Source: a virus
Virus record (IMG/VR): IMGVR_UViG_3300023174_000262
Coordinates: 1 to 46,892 of that record
Reading direction: 5' to 3' (one strand)
DNA: 46,892 nucleotides
In this document: piece after piece, positions 36,634 through 46,700 of the stretch
Layout: every line of letters begins with the position of its first letter
Position numbering within the stretch: position 1 is the stretch's first letter
Translations under genes and position numbers: made by a program
The notes under the pieces: generated by a model
Told to the model about the DNA's origin: nothing
The model's input: only the letters and a program-made list of their open reading frames with translations
The model's database searches: none

Positions 36634-36866
36634 TAGATAGTTCCTCCATCAATAAATGTTGGGTTGGGTGAAGGATCTACTGATAAAGACATCAGGGTAA
36701 ATCCAGATGCAGATTCACTTGGAAGATATCCATACGATTGAGTAACACCACAAACCCAAAACTTTCCATCTCTGCCAACTACATCTCCGTAATAGTAAAT
36801 CTCATACGCAGACGATCCCGGTGCGTATTTTCTATGATCTCCGCGATATGCCATTCCACCCGTCAT
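36633..36866 (-). CDS. Small 77-aa protein, possibly a CBM5/12-like module
   Basis: This 77-aa protein is encoded between gp5 and the PAAR tip and overlaps both. The centre reads AYEIYYYGDVVGRDGKFWVC then GVTQSYGYLPS. This resembles the small chitin-binding pattern Y..GD.V...G..Y.......G..P of CBM5/12 domains. Aromatic residues are dense. The resemblance is short and may be convergent. A protein of this size in the spike operon may sit on the spike or help place the PAAR tip. No cysteine pair or membrane segment is present. Confidence 0.7.
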   Translation of the reverse strand: MTGGMAYRGDHRKYAPGSSAYEIYYYGDVVGRDGKFWVCGVTQSYGYLPSESASGFTLMSLSVDPSPNPTFIDGGTI

Positions 36867-37942
36867 TGTAACTGCACCTTACTAGGATGTAACGGGGCAT
36901 CACCAGAATTCAGTTCAATACGATCACCTATAACAGCAACAGAACCGTTTGATATCAAAGATATTGTACTACCAGAAAAAGCAAGTTCGCCTTCAGAAAA
37001 GAATTCCATCTGTTTACCTGAAGCACGGAACTTGCCTTCGCATTGCAGATTCACTTCAGCCTTTGCAAATATATTAATGTTACCGTCTATTTCAATATTA
37101 CTACCATTTCCAACTACTGTTAAATTAATTGGCCCATCAACCACAACATTCAATCCCTGTTTTCCGCCAATATACACTTTTTTATTTCCCAAACAAATCT
37201 CGTAATCGTCGCCCACTATTTTTTGAACCCTAGTTCCATCTGGCCCAACTTCGTTGAATGTTCCAGACATATGATACTCGTGAATTCTTTCAGCACCGGG
37301 TGTATCATCGTATTCTTTAATGTGTCCGCTTTCTGTAAAAAGCACATGATTTTTAGGATAAACTGCATTATACGGAGTAGCAGGTTCGCTCCAAGACGAT
37401 TTTCCTGATGCTATACCGGGCGTGCTTTGTATATTTTGTTTTACTTCAGAAATTTTCTTTGCAACCACAGTTCCATTCACGGTATCGGATGAATCATTAC
37501 GAGCCAAGCGATTAACATCAGATTCTTTCAAAACCGAAACACCGATAGGAAAATTTCCGGCATCAACTCCATCTACAGTTGCAGGATATTTTGCAGAAGG
37601 ATCACCAAATCCAATACTTGTATCTGCTTCTGCTGTGGGTATTCCTCCAAAAGAACCAATCATAACCGGCTCTTGTGCGTCTTCACCATCTCTAAAAAAT
37701 CCAAACACATGTGAACCGGCAACCAATCCTGTTGGAGACACACCTATTCCCGATACAGCAGCACTTGTCAAAGGCTGCATGGGATACGCCCAAGGTAATG
37801 CTGCGGTTGGAAGTTCTGCGAGATCATCACTATGAAAACCAAAAATACGAACTCGGCAGCGTCCAAGATACAGCGGATCAGCGTTATCTTCTACAACACC
37901 GTGCCACCACACAAATCCTTCTCGTCCTGAAAATCCTTTCAT
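36863..37942 (-). CDS. 5: Baseplate central spike gp5, lysozyme-less
   Basis: This 359-aa protein (T4 gp5 is 575) shows the OB-fold at residues 1-105: WWHGVVEDNADPLYLGRCRV then RIFGFHSDDLAELPTAALPW. The triple-stranded beta-helix spike is at about 235-345, with spaced strands such as KVYIGGKQGLNVVVDGPINL and NLTVVGNGSNIEIDGNINIF. The T4 lysozyme domain, normally between these two, is absent: only about 130 residues of linker are present, without its catalytic motif. So this is a spike without its own peptidoglycan hydrolase. It is coupled to gp27 (TAATG) and to the 77-aa gene. Confidence 0.92.
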   Translation of the reverse strand: MKGFSGREGFVWWHGVVEDNADPLYLGRCRVRIFGFHSDDLAELPTAALPWAYPMQPLTSAAVSGIGVSPTGLVAGSHVFGFFRDGEDAQEPVMIGSFGGIPTAEADTSIGFGDPSAKYPATVDGVDAGNFPIGVSVLKESDVNRLARNDSSDTVNGTVVAKKISEVKQNIQSTPGIASGKSSWSEPATPYNAVYPKNHVLFTESGHIKEYDDTPGAERIHEYHMSGTFNEVGPDGTRVQKIVGDDYEICLGNKKVYIGGKQGLNVVVDGPINLTVVGNGSNIEIDGNINIFAKAEVNLQCEGKFRASGKQMEFFSEGELAFSGSTISLISNGSVAVIGDRIELNSGDAPLHPSKVQLQ

Positions 37943-42224: not shown

Positions 42225-42817
42225 TGATAGACAAGGATCAGGTTAAAGAGTTACAGGAAATCCTAACAGAAACCATTGCCGGATTGGGTGGAACAGACCA
42301 ATCGTATCTGCAACTTTTAAAATATCTCAACAGTATAGACGAACTGCGAATCCCATCTCGGCTAATGGCAGGGCAGATGGTATTTTTCAAATACAAACCA
42401 CAAGATGACCGATTTTTAAATTCATATAAAGCCTACGATGTGTTTCCGTTGGTAATCATTACAAAGGTTCATAATGATGGATTTGAAGGATTAAATCTGC
42501 ATTACATTGCCCAAAAATGGAGACGGCAACTATTCACAGCGATTGAAAAAACACTACCAATGCGTAAAAATGGAGACAAGTCACTTACCCGTTTGGGGGT
42601 TTCATATGATCGGTTAAGTGGGCCAAGAAGATTTCAGTTTTTTAAGCCTTGCTACAGACGATATGTAATGGGTGGGCTTCGCAAAAGACCAATACAAATA
42701 CCGATGGAATTTTGGGATGTGTTAGTAGATGTTGATCTTGCCCTGTTTGTGAAGGGGCGAAAGATGGGAATTCGTCGTATGTCTTACAACGCTTCTATAC
42801 AGTCAGGAAACCTATAA
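42224..42817 (+). CDS. Conserved T4-like phage protein of unknown function (197 aa)
   Basis: The 197-aa product contains AYDVFPLVIITKVHNDGFEG followed by LNLHYIAQKWRRQLFTAIEK, and later FQFFKPCYRRYVMGGLRKRP with PMEFWDVLV. These are familiar motifs (FPL...DGF.GLNLHY, FKPC..RY) of a family found beside gp4 or tail genes in T4-like phages of aquatic bacteria. I know of no assigned function. It is basic and without membrane segments. The ATG overlaps the gp4 stop and the TAA overlaps the next ATG, so it is made with gp4 and the tube initiator. Head-tail joining or tail assembly is a reasonable guess from context. Confidence 0.82.
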   Translation: MIDKDQVKELQEILTETIAGLGGTDQSYLQLLKYLNSIDELRIPSRLMAGQMVFFKYKPQDDRFLNSYKAYDVFPLVIITKVHNDGFEGLNLHYIAQKWRRQLFTAIEKTLPMRKNGDKSLTRLGVSYDRLSGPRRFQFFKPCYRRYVMGGLRKRPIQIPMEFWDVLVDVDLALFVKGRKMGIRRMSYNASIQSGNL

Positions 42818-43563
42818 TGGCAGACATCCCATCAAACATTAATGAAATGATGAGCGAAATATATCGGGACAGCCTGATATACGCTAATCGGTTTGAAGTG
42901 GTTATAAACACCCCAATGGTTTTTAATACAAGACCCACATCTACAAAATCTTTAACATTAAGATGTAATTCGGTTTCTGTTCCTGGACGCTCACTAACAA
43001 CTCAAAACTACAGATTTTATGGCCCACAGAGACAATTTCCAATAGAACCTTTATACTCGGGAGATTTATCTCTATCGTATATTTTGTCTAATGATTTGAA
43101 AGAACGAGTATTCTTTGAAGAGTGGCTAAATTTTGTGTGCAATCCAAACAACTATAAGTTCTCATTTTATGATAACTATACAACAAACATAACTGTAAAT
43201 ATTCTAAACAAAACAGATGAAGTGGTATATTCTGCTATTGTAGAAGAAGTATATCCAAAACAGTTAGGCGATCTTGCTATGGGTTATGAAAGAGATGAAT
43301 TTTTAACACAAGATATAACTCTTGCATATAGAAAATATACTCCCATGATTGTTAGATCACCAAACACAACAAGAATTAGTCCATCAACACAAAATATGGA
43401 AGGACAAAACAACATATCTGATATGTTTAAGCAGATTCCCGCATCTTCTCCTGTTTCACAAACACAACAACAACCGCGACAGGTTTTTGGAATAAACCCA
43501 AAAACGGGTAGAATAGATCGGTATGGTAGTGATGGAACGGTAAACGGAGTAATAAATGGATAA
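42817..43563 (+). CDS. 54: Tail tube initiator, gp54-like
   Basis: This 248-aa protein has the tail-tube fold pattern: ANRFEVVINTP, LRCNSVSVPGRSLTTQNYRF, YGPQRQFPIEPLYSGDLSLS, then EEWLNFVCNPNNYKFSFYDN and VYSAIVEEVYPKQLGDL. This resembles both gp19 (tube) and T4 gp54 (the first tube ring, placed on gp48). Here gp19 is encoded elsewhere, and this gene lies just before gp26 and gp29, so gp54 is the better choice. The final 55 residues are Gln, Ser and Pro-rich and likely flexible. AGGA precedes the ATG, which overlaps the preceding TAA. Confidence 0.8.
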   Translation: MADIPSNINEMMSEIYRDSLIYANRFEVVINTPMVFNTRPTSTKSLTLRCNSVSVPGRSLTTQNYRFYGPQRQFPIEPLYSGDLSLSYILSNDLKERVFFEEWLNFVCNPNNYKFSFYDNYTTNITVNILNKTDEVVYSAIVEEVYPKQLGDLAMGYERDEFLTQDITLAYRKYTPMIVRSPNTTRISPSTQNMEGQNNISDMFKQIPASSPVSQTQQQPRQVFGINPKTGRIDRYGSDGTVNGVING

Positions 43564-43605: not shown

Positions 43606-44316
43606 ATGAACAAACTGAAACTGACTTCTTCGCAATTGCCCATGTATACCATGACACTTCCCATATCAGGAATTGTGGCAAAGTATCGACCATTCGTGGT
43701 AAAAGAAGAAAAAATTTTGTTGGTCGCAGCACAATCTGGAGATATGAACCAGATAGTAGATGCAATGCGTAACATCATATCTGCTTGCACAGATGGGCTT
43801 TTGGACACTAAAAAAATGTGCACGGCTGATGCAGAGTACGCATTTCTACAAATACGAATGAAGTCGGTTGGAGAAGATGTAAAACCACAAATTACCTGTT
43901 CCAAGTGCAAAGAAAAGACATCAATAAAGATAAATCTTCAAAATGTAAAAGTGAAACAGGTAGAGAAGGAAGTGGTTGATTCTAATATAAAGATAACAGA
44001 TTCGTTATCAATCGTTCTAAAATATCCATCAATGCACGATGTGGACTACAGCAAAACCGAAATAGAAGCAATTTTTAGTGTAGCCAAAGACTGCATAGAG
44101 TCTGTGATTATGAACGATGAAGTGTACACAAAAAATGATATAGACCCCAAGGAATTGTCAGACTTTGTAGACAATCTCCTACCAGAACAGTTTGAACAGA
44201 TAATGAAATATGTGAAAACCACACCAGAACTATACTATCAATTTGCCTACACCTGCCCGTCTTGTAAAGAAAAGGTTGAAGTGGAGGTCAAAACGGTAGC
44301 CGATTTTTTTCAATAG
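43606..44316 (+). CDS. 26: Baseplate hub / tail assembly chaperone gp26
   Basis: This 236-aa protein (T4 gp26 is 208) matches the T4-type gp26 family: LPMYTMTLPISGIVAKYRPF followed by VVKEEKILLVAAQSGDMNQI and FLQIRMKSVGEDVKPQITCS. It has two CxxC pairs (C98/C101 and C217/C220), a possible zinc ribbon. In T4 gp26 helps build the hub around gp29. The frame ends ADFFQ-stop. A run of seven T at its end permits a -1 shift into a 61-codon extension, giving a longer form as in tail-assembly chaperones. GGAG precedes the ATG, and TATAAATA lies upstream. Confidence 0.9.
   Translation: MNKLKLTSSQLPMYTMTLPISGIVAKYRPFVVKEEKILLVAAQSGDMNQIVDAMRNIISACTDGLLDTKKMCTADAEYAFLQIRMKSVGEDVKPQITCSKCKEKTSIKINLQNVKVKQVEKEVVDSNIKITDSLSIVLKYPSMHDVDYSKTEIEAIFSVAKDCIESVIMNDEVYTKNDIDPKELSDFVDNLLPEQFEQIMKYVKTTPELYYQFAYTCPSCKEKVEVEVKTVADFFQ
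44283..44288 (+). promoter_or_regulatory. Internal Shine-Dalgarno-like stimulator of frameshifting
   Basis: GGAGGT within the gp26 coding sequence lies 15 bases before the T7 slip site. No start codon follows it at a normal distance. In dnaX-type frameshifts a similar internal sequence pairs with 16S rRNA and promotes -1 slipping, so this is a plausible stimulator. This is an inference from spacing and sequence. Confidence 0.45.
44304..44310 (+). other. Programmed -1 ribosomal frameshift site (T TTT TTT)
   Basis: In the gp26 frame the codons are GAT TTT TTT CAA TAG, so the heptamer T-TTT-TTT spans 44304-44310, just before the stop. Shifting back one base continues as TCA ATA GCA and on to TAA at 44493. 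Both tRNAs can re-pair with TTT after the slip. The site has an upstream GGAGGT and a downstream hairpin, the usual parts of a bacterial -1 signal. Confidence 0.82.
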
Positions 44317-44495
44317 CACTCTGCCATAATACACTGGCAGCGTATTACCAGACAAATTTTTCACTAATACACCACCACAAATACTCTCTTGCTGAAGTGG
44401 AGGAGTTGCTACCTTGGGAGCGTGAAGTATACATAAATTTATTGATCCAATTCTTGAAAGAAGAAAAAGAACGAGCCAAGCAGAAAAGGCAATAA
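44310..44495 (+). CDS. 51: Frameshift extension of gp26 (gp51 position, GT-like tail chaperone)
   Basis: The -1 frame is open from 44280 to the TAA at 44493-44495 but has no ATG, GTG or TTG start before about codon 40 of the extension. It therefore makes sense only as a fusion. The fused product would be 235 gp26 residues plus 61, or 296 aa. The added part begins SIALCHNTLAAYYQTNFSLI and has AEVEELLPWEREVYINLLIQ then a charged tail (KEEKERAKQKRQ). The pattern LPWERxxYxxLL is typical of C-terminal parts of phage tail chaperones. It ends 3 bases before the tape measure. The longer form would bind the tape measure as lambda GT does. T4 gp51 is the positional counterpart. Confidence 0.8.
   Translation, partial: SIALCHNTLAAYYQTNFSLIHHHKYSLAEVEELLPWEREVYINLLIQFLKEEKERAKQKRQ
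44321..44340 (+). promoter_or_regulatory. Hairpin downstream of the frameshift site
   Basis: CTGCCA (44321-44326) pairs with TGGCAG (44335-44340) across an 8-base loop, giving a 6-bp stem that starts 10 bases after the slip heptamer. This spacing suits stalling of a ribosome on the slippery site. The stem lacks a following T-run, so it is not a terminator. Confidence 0.6.
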
Positions 44496-44498
44496 TAG

Positions 44499-46667
44499 AT
44501 GGCAAAAAAAGGTCCAGGTAGGGGAAGAAGAAATGCTCCACGAGTGGGCGGTAAATTTGCAAAAATTACACCTATAACTGCTGCCCTACCAGCCGCACCC
44601 AATCCAACCGTTAAAACAACGGTGGAAGAGGCTGATAAAAAAATAGGAATACTAGAAGCCCTTCTAGAAAAACAAAAAGAACTAACAGGCGGTGAAACCG
44701 AACTGTCTATGGCTGTTCTTGGAAAGGGTGGAACTAAAGGCGTTCGTGCCCAAATTGAACAACTTGTACGAGAAAACAGAGAAGGTTTACAAGACCTAGA
44801 CGATCCTAATAATTCTGCTAATTTTGCGATTATTGAGTCTGCTCTTGCACTATCAGAAAGAGCAGTTCGCTCCAAAGACAGAAAAGAACAAGTAGACATC
44901 CACAACAAACTAAAATTTATCCGCGAGACAGCGGAAAAAACCACTGGTGAAAAATCTGAAATAACAAAAAAGATAGCAGAAATAATCAAGCCTGTTGAAT
45001 CGGTACTAAAACAAAAAACTGGTTTTTCTGCTTTTGTCAAAGAAAGATTGACCGAAAAACTAAAAGCAGCACCAGAAGGAATTGTTCGTCAAATTCCATT
45101 GGTTGGTGGGTTGCTGGGAGACTTTCTACAAGAAAAAAGAACGGGTAGGGAAGAACTTGAAGCCTATGCTGGAAGACGAATCGAAAGCATTTCTCAAGCA
45201 GGCAGCAAAACCAACGAACTAGAACGAATCCTAATGGGAAGAGGAATGGGGGGAGCAGGCACAATGCCAACACCACCATTCAGAGGTGCAAGCACAGTAG
45301 GAAATATGGTTGGAGGTGCGGCTGGTGGTAGACTTGCAGGATTTGCCACAGGACAATCCAGTACGCTTGGTCAGATTGCTGCTGATGTTCGTGCCATTAA
45401 AGAACAAATAGTTACTAAAAAATCAGGAACGGACGCACTAAAAGAAAAAGAAAAAGAAATAAAGACTATTGCAGCAGTTGCCAAAGGCGACGAAAAGCAA
45501 AAAGGACTATTCGGTGGATTAGGAAAAACTCTTTCTGGTTTAATGGGTGGTGGAAGTCTGCTTGCTAGTTTGGCTAGCATGTTTGGAATGGGTGGAAGTG
45601 GAACAGCAGCAGAAGCAGCAGAATCACAACCGGGATTATTATCACAAGCAACCGATTGGGCAAGTGATAAAGCAACCGATTTCGGACTGAAAAAAGCATG
45701 GCAAGGCACTAAAAATTTAGCATCAAAAGCATGGACAGGTACTAAATCCATGCTTGGATTTGGTGGACAAGCAGCCGAAAGTTCGGCTGGCACTGCTGCA
45801 AAGGGTGCAGTTGGTGCTGCTGAAACAGTTGCAGAAAACAAGTCGTGGTGGAAGAGTGCATGGGAAGGCACGAAGAATATGGCATCCAAAGGATGGGAAG
45901 GTGCTAAATCTGCCGGAAGTGCAGTAGTAGAAGCAGGAAAAGCAGCAGCCAGTGAAGCCGCAGCAATAGCAGAAGCCGTTGCTAATCCCGGTGCGTTCTT
46001 AAAAGGAAACATGGGCAAAATTTTGGGCGGGATGAAGTCTCTTGGCCCAATTACTTCTGCAATTGAAGGCGTAATAGGCGCATTCAATATTTACAGTTTA
46101 AAAAACGATCCAAATCTGTCTCCAGAACAAAAGAAAGAAGCAATAGGAGCAGAAATTTCAAAGCGTTTTGGATCTGCTGTTGGTGGAATAATCGGAGGTG
46201 GATTAGGAACAGCAATAGGGCCAATAGGAACTGTTTTGGGTGGTGTGGCAGGAGCAATGGGTGGCGAATGGGTTGGAAATCAGATAGCCGATCTTATTGG
46301 GCCTAAAGGAATCTACGATTTTGTTTCATCTATTCCATTGATAGGAGATTCCATCAAGGTAGAAGGAACAAGTCCTTCAGCAGAAACCACACAGCCAACA
46401 ACAGGAACAATTTCACCAACACCAACAGCAGCAACTCCTACTGGTCAACAGGCAAATGCTATGGAAATGAATCGCCGTGGCACAGAAGAACTACGAGATT
46501 ACGCGGCAAAGCAGTCTCAAGCACAAGCAGCATTTGTTAATCAACAAAAAACAGCAACAGCAAATATGTACAATCAAAACAATACAGTTGTAAACAACTA
46601 TAATGATGATTTAAGAGTGAGAAATAACGAGGCTACTCTGAAATCTATGGAGCGTGGCACAATATAA
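44499..46667 (+). CDS. 29: Tail tape measure protein gp29
   Basis: This 722-aa protein (T4 gp29 is 590) sets tail length and fills the tube lumen. It begins with a basic segment, then long charged helices (40-240). A Gly-rich hydrophobic region follows, with a glycine-zipper-like stretch (558-600, SAVGGIIGGGLGTAIGPIGT then VLGGVAGAMGGEW). Two similar 19-residue units recur 55 residues apart (399-417 and 454-472, AWxGTKNxASKxWxGxKS). The C-terminus is Asn and Gln-rich (MYNQNNTVVNNYNDDLRVRN), as in gp29-type proteins. Position directly after the chaperone gene is the general rule for tape measures. It is closed by a hairpin terminator. Confidence 0.88.
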   Translation: MAKKGPGRGRRNAPRVGGKFAKITPITAALPAAPNPTVKTTVEEADKKIGILEALLEKQKELTGGETELSMAVLGKGGTKGVRAQIEQLVRENREGLQDLDDPNNSANFAIIESALALSERAVRSKDRKEQVDIHNKLKFIRETAEKTTGEKSEITKKIAEIIKPVESVLKQKTGFSAFVKERLTEKLKAAPEGIVRQIPLVGGLLGDFLQEKRTGREELEAYAGRRIESISQAGSKTNELERILMGRGMGGAGTMPTPPFRGASTVGNMVGGAAGGRLAGFATGQSSTLGQIAADVRAIKEQIVTKKSGTDALKEKEKEIKTIAAVAKGDEKQKGLFGGLGKTLSGLMGGGSLLASLASMFGMGGSGTAAEAAESQPGLLSQATDWASDKATDFGLKKAWQGTKNLASKAWTGTKSMLGFGGQAAESSAGTAAKGAVGAAETVAENKSWWKSAWEGTKNMASKGWEGAKSAGSAVVEAGKAAASEAAAIAEAVANPGAFLKGNMGKILGGMKSLGPITSAIEGVIGAFNIYSLKNDPNLSPEQKKEAIGAEISKRFGSAVGGIIGGGLGTAIGPIGTVLGGVAGAMGGEWVGNQIADLIGPKGIYDFVSSIPLIGDSIKVEGTSPSAETTQPTTGTISPTPTAATPTGQQANAMEMNRRGTEELRDYAAKQSQAQAAFVNQQKTATANMYNQNNTVVNNYNDDLRVRNNEATLKSMERGTI
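45693..45914 (+). repeat. Duplicated coding unit inside the tape measure
   Basis: Codons 399-417 (45693-45749) and 454-472 (45858-45914) encode nearly the same 19-residue unit, AWxGTKNxASKxWxGxKS, with high DNA similarity. Each unit is itself two W-G-K halves. The DNA between them is unrelated. Duplications of this type lengthen tape measures, and thus tails. Confidence 0.7.
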
Positions 46668-46670
46668 AAA

Positions 46671-46700
46671 GAAAAAGGCACGCCGAAGCGTGCCCTTTTC
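46671..46700. terminator. Bidirectional hairpin terminator
   Basis: GGCACGC (46677-46683) pairs with GCGTGCC (46688-46694) across a 4-base loop, flanked by an A-run on the left and CTTTT on the right. On the plus strand it ends the gp29 arm. On the minus strand the loop reads C-TTCG-G, a very stable tetraloop, followed by TTTTT, and would end the convergent right-edge gene. Both stops lie close by (46667 and 46720). Confidence 0.9.

Follow-up and report, generated by a model that had tools for sequence, protein, structure and literature searches.

A predicted programmed -1 frameshift between gp26 and a gp51-type domain in an uncultured T4-like virus

Does the gp26 gene of this virus give one protein or two? 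The window (the whole stretch of DNA analysed here, an IMG/VR virus record of 46,892 bases) contains a gp26 gene that ends with GAT TTT TTT CAA TAG, and a frame of 61 codons without a start codon in its first part is open behind it in the -1 register. The first-pass annotation proposed that a programmed -1 frameshift joins them into a G/GT-like pair of 236 aa and 296 aa. We consider it highly probable (about 93%), on the basis of sequence comparison, that gp26 and the -1 frame are a single tail-assembly chaperone gene of the lambda G/GT type, with two products made via a programmed -1 slip.

The gp26 locus and its neighbours

The gp26 end with its run of seven T, GGAGGT 15 bases before this heptamer, a 6-bp stem beginning 10 bases after it and the end of the -1 frame 3 bases before the tape measure gene, all given in the first-pass annotation, were found at their positions (Table 1). 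The match of gp26 to PF12322 is nearly full-length (residues 12-235 against profile positions 2-218 of 219), and residues 2-60 of the -1 frame match phrog_634 ('baseplate hub assembly catalyst'). This frame is open from 44280 to 44495, and by shuffling, the chance of 71 open codons in it is P ~0.005. After its TAA at 44493-44495 comes a TAG, and the 722-aa ORF begins with ATG at 44499. The heptamer has the form X_XXY_YYZ in the zero-frame register and overlaps the open -1 frame, as is required of a programmed -1 frameshift. Moreover, of the 14,876 codon positions in the window's main ORFs, 6 have in-frame NNT TTT TTN, and the one in gp26 alone is at a gene end.

Table 1. Features of the gp26 locus in the window
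Feature	Position	Strand	Evidence or remark
gp26, predicted short chaperone form (TAC-N / lambda G-like), 236 aa	43606..44316	+	PF12322 T4_baseplate E=5e-58; phrog_150 baseplate hub E=2.5e-58
GGAGGT, Shine-Dalgarno-like putative stimulator	44283..44288	+	15 bases 5' of heptamer; invariant in 9 close relatives
Putative slippery heptamer T_TTT_TTT (-1 shift)	44304..44310	+	sequence; T_TTT_TT(T/C/A) in 103/103 loci (95 distinct)
-1 frame, gp51-type C-terminal domain, 61 codons + TAA	44310..44495	+	phrog_634 E=8.2e-27; aligned in 46 relatives; third-position substitutions
Zero-frame stop TAG of gp26	44314..44316	+	one codon (CAA) past heptamer
6-bp hairpin CTGCCA-8-TGGCAG, possible 3' stimulator	44321..44340	+	stem 44321-44326 with 44335-44340; z ~ -2.6; 8/9 near relatives
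Probable tape measure protein (gp29 counterpart), 722 aa	44499..46667	+	phrog_167 tape measure E=5e-9 over part of protein; position after chaperone genes
Intrinsic-terminator-like hairpin, operon end	46677..46694	+	

The proposed products would be made as follows. Most ribosomes would stop at the TAG and release gp26. A minority may pause near T_TTT_TTT, aided by the downstream hairpin and by pairing of the upstream GGAGGT with 16S rRNA, then move back by one base and read through the gp51-type domain, giving the predicted 296-aa fusion (TAC-NC / lambda GT-like). By analogy with lambda G/GT, copies of the short form would cover the tape measure protein, whose gene follows directly, a few long ones would bring in tail-tube subunits by means of their extra domain, and both forms together would load the tape measure. 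We infer the slipping and its rate, as well as the chaperone role, from sequence and by analogy.

The order of genes is of the G/GT type, namely the predicted short and long forms directly before the probable tape measure gene and after a tail tube gene. The upstream neighbours are T4-type by profile matches (head closure, DNA end protector and a tail tube-like protein, the last at 42817-43563), and the other strand carries T4-type portal, sheath, terminase and baseplate genes. A strong bidirectional terminator-like hairpin (46671-46700) separates the tape measure gene from an opposite-strand frame at the window end. In addition, the gp5-type baseplate hub protein (36863-37942) has only 359 aa and matches just parts of hub-lysozyme profiles of 850-930 positions; judging from the sequence, its lysozyme part may be missing.

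Conservation and selection across relatives

Relatives were collected by a first scan (23 loci) and by a second, alignment-based one (80 loci), and the slip site was used as bait in neither. The 103 loci with both parts comprise the window's own record, viral contigs, S-PM2 and phiM7 and give 95 distinct junctions, for which the counts are descriptive, because the loci are kin and statistics overstate their independence. In all 103 loci the tail is in the -1 register behind a heptamer T_TTT_TT(T/C/A), with gp26 identity down to 25%, and thus the comparison that the first-pass annotation had suggested found both slip site and frame kept. The last base of the heptamer is T in 58 loci, C in 36 and A in 9. 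The gp26 stop follows at 0-9 codons in every locus and at 0-3 codons in 100 of them; L051, L082 and L087 have 8-9 zero-frame codons there. Two loci without the tail both end inside gp26.

Codon usage at the junction is strict. The codon before the two Phe codons is NNT at 95 of 95 junctions, compared with a T-ending share of 57-70% among D, S and N codons in the rest of gp26, and the first Phe codon is always TTT, compared with 74% elsewhere. At other places in the gp26 genes, in-frame NNT TTT TTN was found at 14 of 22,003 positions.

Ten additional named phages, whose hosts are very diverse, also have the slip site (Vibrio, Pseudomonas, Nitratidesulfovibrio, Aeromonas, Stenotrophomonas, Variovorax, Pseudoalteromonas, Methylophilales and Synechococcus). 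In the Stenotrophomonas and Variovorax phages, the slip site is accompanied by an open -1 frame with a tail profile match below significance. The gp26 relative of Vibrio phage K393 (L113, 3064-3270) ends with TCA CTT TTC AAG TAA, without the canonical heptamer, and is followed by a weak gp51-like -1 frame (E=0.097). The annotated genes after this frame in K393 are not tape-measure-like. As far as sequences tell, the slip site is conserved in nearly all distant relatives examined. The best named relative among the matches listed is 41% identical.

Within the tail, variable columns among near relatives number 35, 10 and 4 at codon positions 3, 1 and 2 of the -1 frame, and comparison with L003, L004, L013 and L014 gave more synonymous than replacement changes in the -1 frame only. 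Because third codon positions in the -1 frame take most of the changes, this frame is likely to be translated, and the pattern points to purifying selection acting on it. The same data bear on whether the locus is an assembly error or a decayed gene, formerly a single frame that lost one base. The window is a single contig, which would leave room for such an error, but another contig (L002) encodes an identical protein pair, and a mere error would fit neither the purifying selection in the -1 frame nor the same frame break in all relatives. For the latter reason this explanation was rejected, and its probability is negligible.

On the other hand, gp51 could be a separate small protein, started within the 3' end of gp26 by reinitiation or at a non-standard start codon. 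Most databases annotate it in this way, with its own CDS in S-PM2, phiM7, Milchi, S-SM1, R10Z and others, and GGAGGT is readable as its ribosome-binding site. However, there is no ATG, GTG or TTG before 44397 in the -1 frame of the window, and the first candidates, GTG at 44397 and TTG at 44406, are both in the middle of the conserved tail domain. Across the relatives, the region where a start would be required has no ATG, GTG or TTG in 50 of 95 loci and no ATG in 79 of 95. The annotated starts are not the same in different phages, and some fall inside the conserved domain, as in Melnitz, where the CDS begins at 2555 and the tail at ~2500. Moreover, an independent start leaves unexplained the invariant T_TTT_TT(T/C/A) and the matching full-length gp51 of T4. 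We rejected this alternative for the missing start codon at the required place and consider it very improbable.

Signals flanking the slip site

The programmed slip is further supported by the sequences on both sides of the heptamer. Upstream, GGAGG is enriched ~90-fold at 3-20 bases before the slip site relative to positions 40-199 upstream (95 loci). Its spacing is mostly ~10 bases across loci and 16 bases in the clade of the window, where GGAGGT stands 15 bases before the heptamer of the window itself. Glu codons in the last eight positions of gp26 are GAG rather than GAA at 48:31, compared with 465:1557 elsewhere (odds ratio 5.2). Downstream, RNA folding peaks in the 55 bases starting 5 bases past the slip site, with a mean z of -1.14 over 95 loci and z < -2 in 26 of them, while the means at other offsets range from +0.06 to -0.33. 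In S-PM2 (L026, 2499-2558), the slip site is directly followed by a perfect hairpin of 14 bp (z -5.5), and the hairpin of the window is much weaker. The window hairpin is kept in eight of nine near relatives, though no compensatory double change was found among the nine. Thus, a Shine-Dalgarno-like sequence and a downstream structure are enriched across the 95 loci, and the window itself has a long spacing and a non-covarying hairpin; the hairpin is the weakest element of the proposed frameshift signal.

These signals also bear on the possibility that the fusion arises when RNA polymerase, rather than the ribosome, slips on the T run. The window has seven Ts, and L030 (GAT TTT TTT TTA) even has nine, which would suit a slipping polymerase. 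However, the heptamer is TTTTTTC or TTTTTTA in 45 of 103 loci, nearly all with only six Ts, and the kept NNT TTT TTN register together with GGAGG upstream and structure downstream is what is expected for the ribosome. Polymerase slippage was rejected for the many loci with T runs of only six, and we regard it as even less probable than a separate gp51 start. Since the frame, the slip site, the 5' GGAGG and the 3' structure are conserved in very distant relatives, a programmed -1 shift and a G/GT-like pair of the proposed lengths are supported.

T4, known chaperone pairs and the annotation of gp51

In T4, gp26 and gp51 are encoded by separate genes on opposite strands. Both match PF12322, and gp51 additionally matches phrog_634. 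In hhalign, the alignment of the fusion profile to T4 gp51 covers residues 6 to 244 and passes through the junction, and that to T4 gp26 extends as far as the end of gp26. By these alignments, T4 gp51 is a full-length paralogue of gp26 with the same tail as the fusion. T4 gp26 ends with EFFELL (GAG TTC TTT GAG TTA CTA TAA), keeping the two Phe residues without the slip site, and JD18 has gp26 and gp51 arranged as in T4. Therefore, two genes appear to replace the slip in that lineage: T4 gp26 is homologous to the short form of the window and T4 gp51 to its fusion over nearly their full lengths, whereas the window has one locus predicted to be joined by slipping.

Lambda gpG/gpGT and HK97 gp13/gp14 resemble the predicted window pair: a short form and a minor -1 long form are encoded before the tape measure gene. 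On the other hand, gp26 of the window is about twice as long as lambda gpG or HK97 gp13 and has no detectable sequence relation to the latter, and the slip sequence of lambda is G GGA AAG, unlike T_TTT_TTT. We modelled gp26 (pLDDT 91.6) and the 61-residue domain (four helices), leaving two rows from named database records out of the alignment for structure prediction. Foldseek of the gp26 model against the PDB gave no significant match, the HK97 chaperone gp13 (2ob9) being at rank 9 (E=1.5, TMt 0.37). No match was obtained in the fold comparison of the 61-residue domain, in the PDB sequence search or in the profile comparison of gp26 with HK97 gp13.

With regard to novelty, the abstract of the 2022 study by Vladimirov and colleagues reportedly mentions genes 26 and 51 of T4 and states that several other T4-like groups keep the frameshifting. 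The first-pass annotation knew of no description of this mechanism for T4-like gp26/gp51, but it had already been described: the chaperone genes of T4-like phages were identified by Vladimirov, Gautam and Davidson (Virology 2022;566:9-15), as relayed by PMC12846349 and PMC10885494. The former cites that study on the poly-T -1 signals that T4-like phages have in their TAC-N genes, and the latter on a short copy and a long fusion copy in some of these phages. The T4-like gp26/gp51 frameshift is thus not new and, according to these citing papers, has been established in outline since 2022. As relayed there, its loci are of the same kind as ours, with the same poly-T slip where the short form ends and a short/long pair, and nothing essential differs; the window is an uncultured and fairly divergent member. 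A poly-T -1 slip (GTTTTT site) at the TAC-N end, upstream of the tape measure, is also found in Vandenendeviridae and Andersonviridae, which are different phage families from that of the window (PMC12846349).

The window contributes a divergent example and clear counts. Four points could jointly go beyond the 2022 report, although we hold this to be rather doubtful: the co-conservation of GGAGG with the slip site (upstream at a distance of mostly 10 bases, or of 16 in the clade of the window), the lineage-specific 3' structure, the use of T_TTT_TTA, and the different or lost slip in the K393 group.

The frameshift also explains the short 'gp51' as a mere C-terminal part of the fusion, which T4 encodes as its own gene. 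An earlier paper had reported, without saying why, that some 200 residues are missing from the N-terminus of cyanophage gp51 (PMC3037559), and gp51 is probably annotated with a false start in many cyanophage records. In records of cyanophages and relatives, gp51 stands as a free gene with inconsistent starts (e.g. L026, 2507-2680; L115, 2555-2698), and these free-standing records are probably misannotated C-terminal parts of the fusion.
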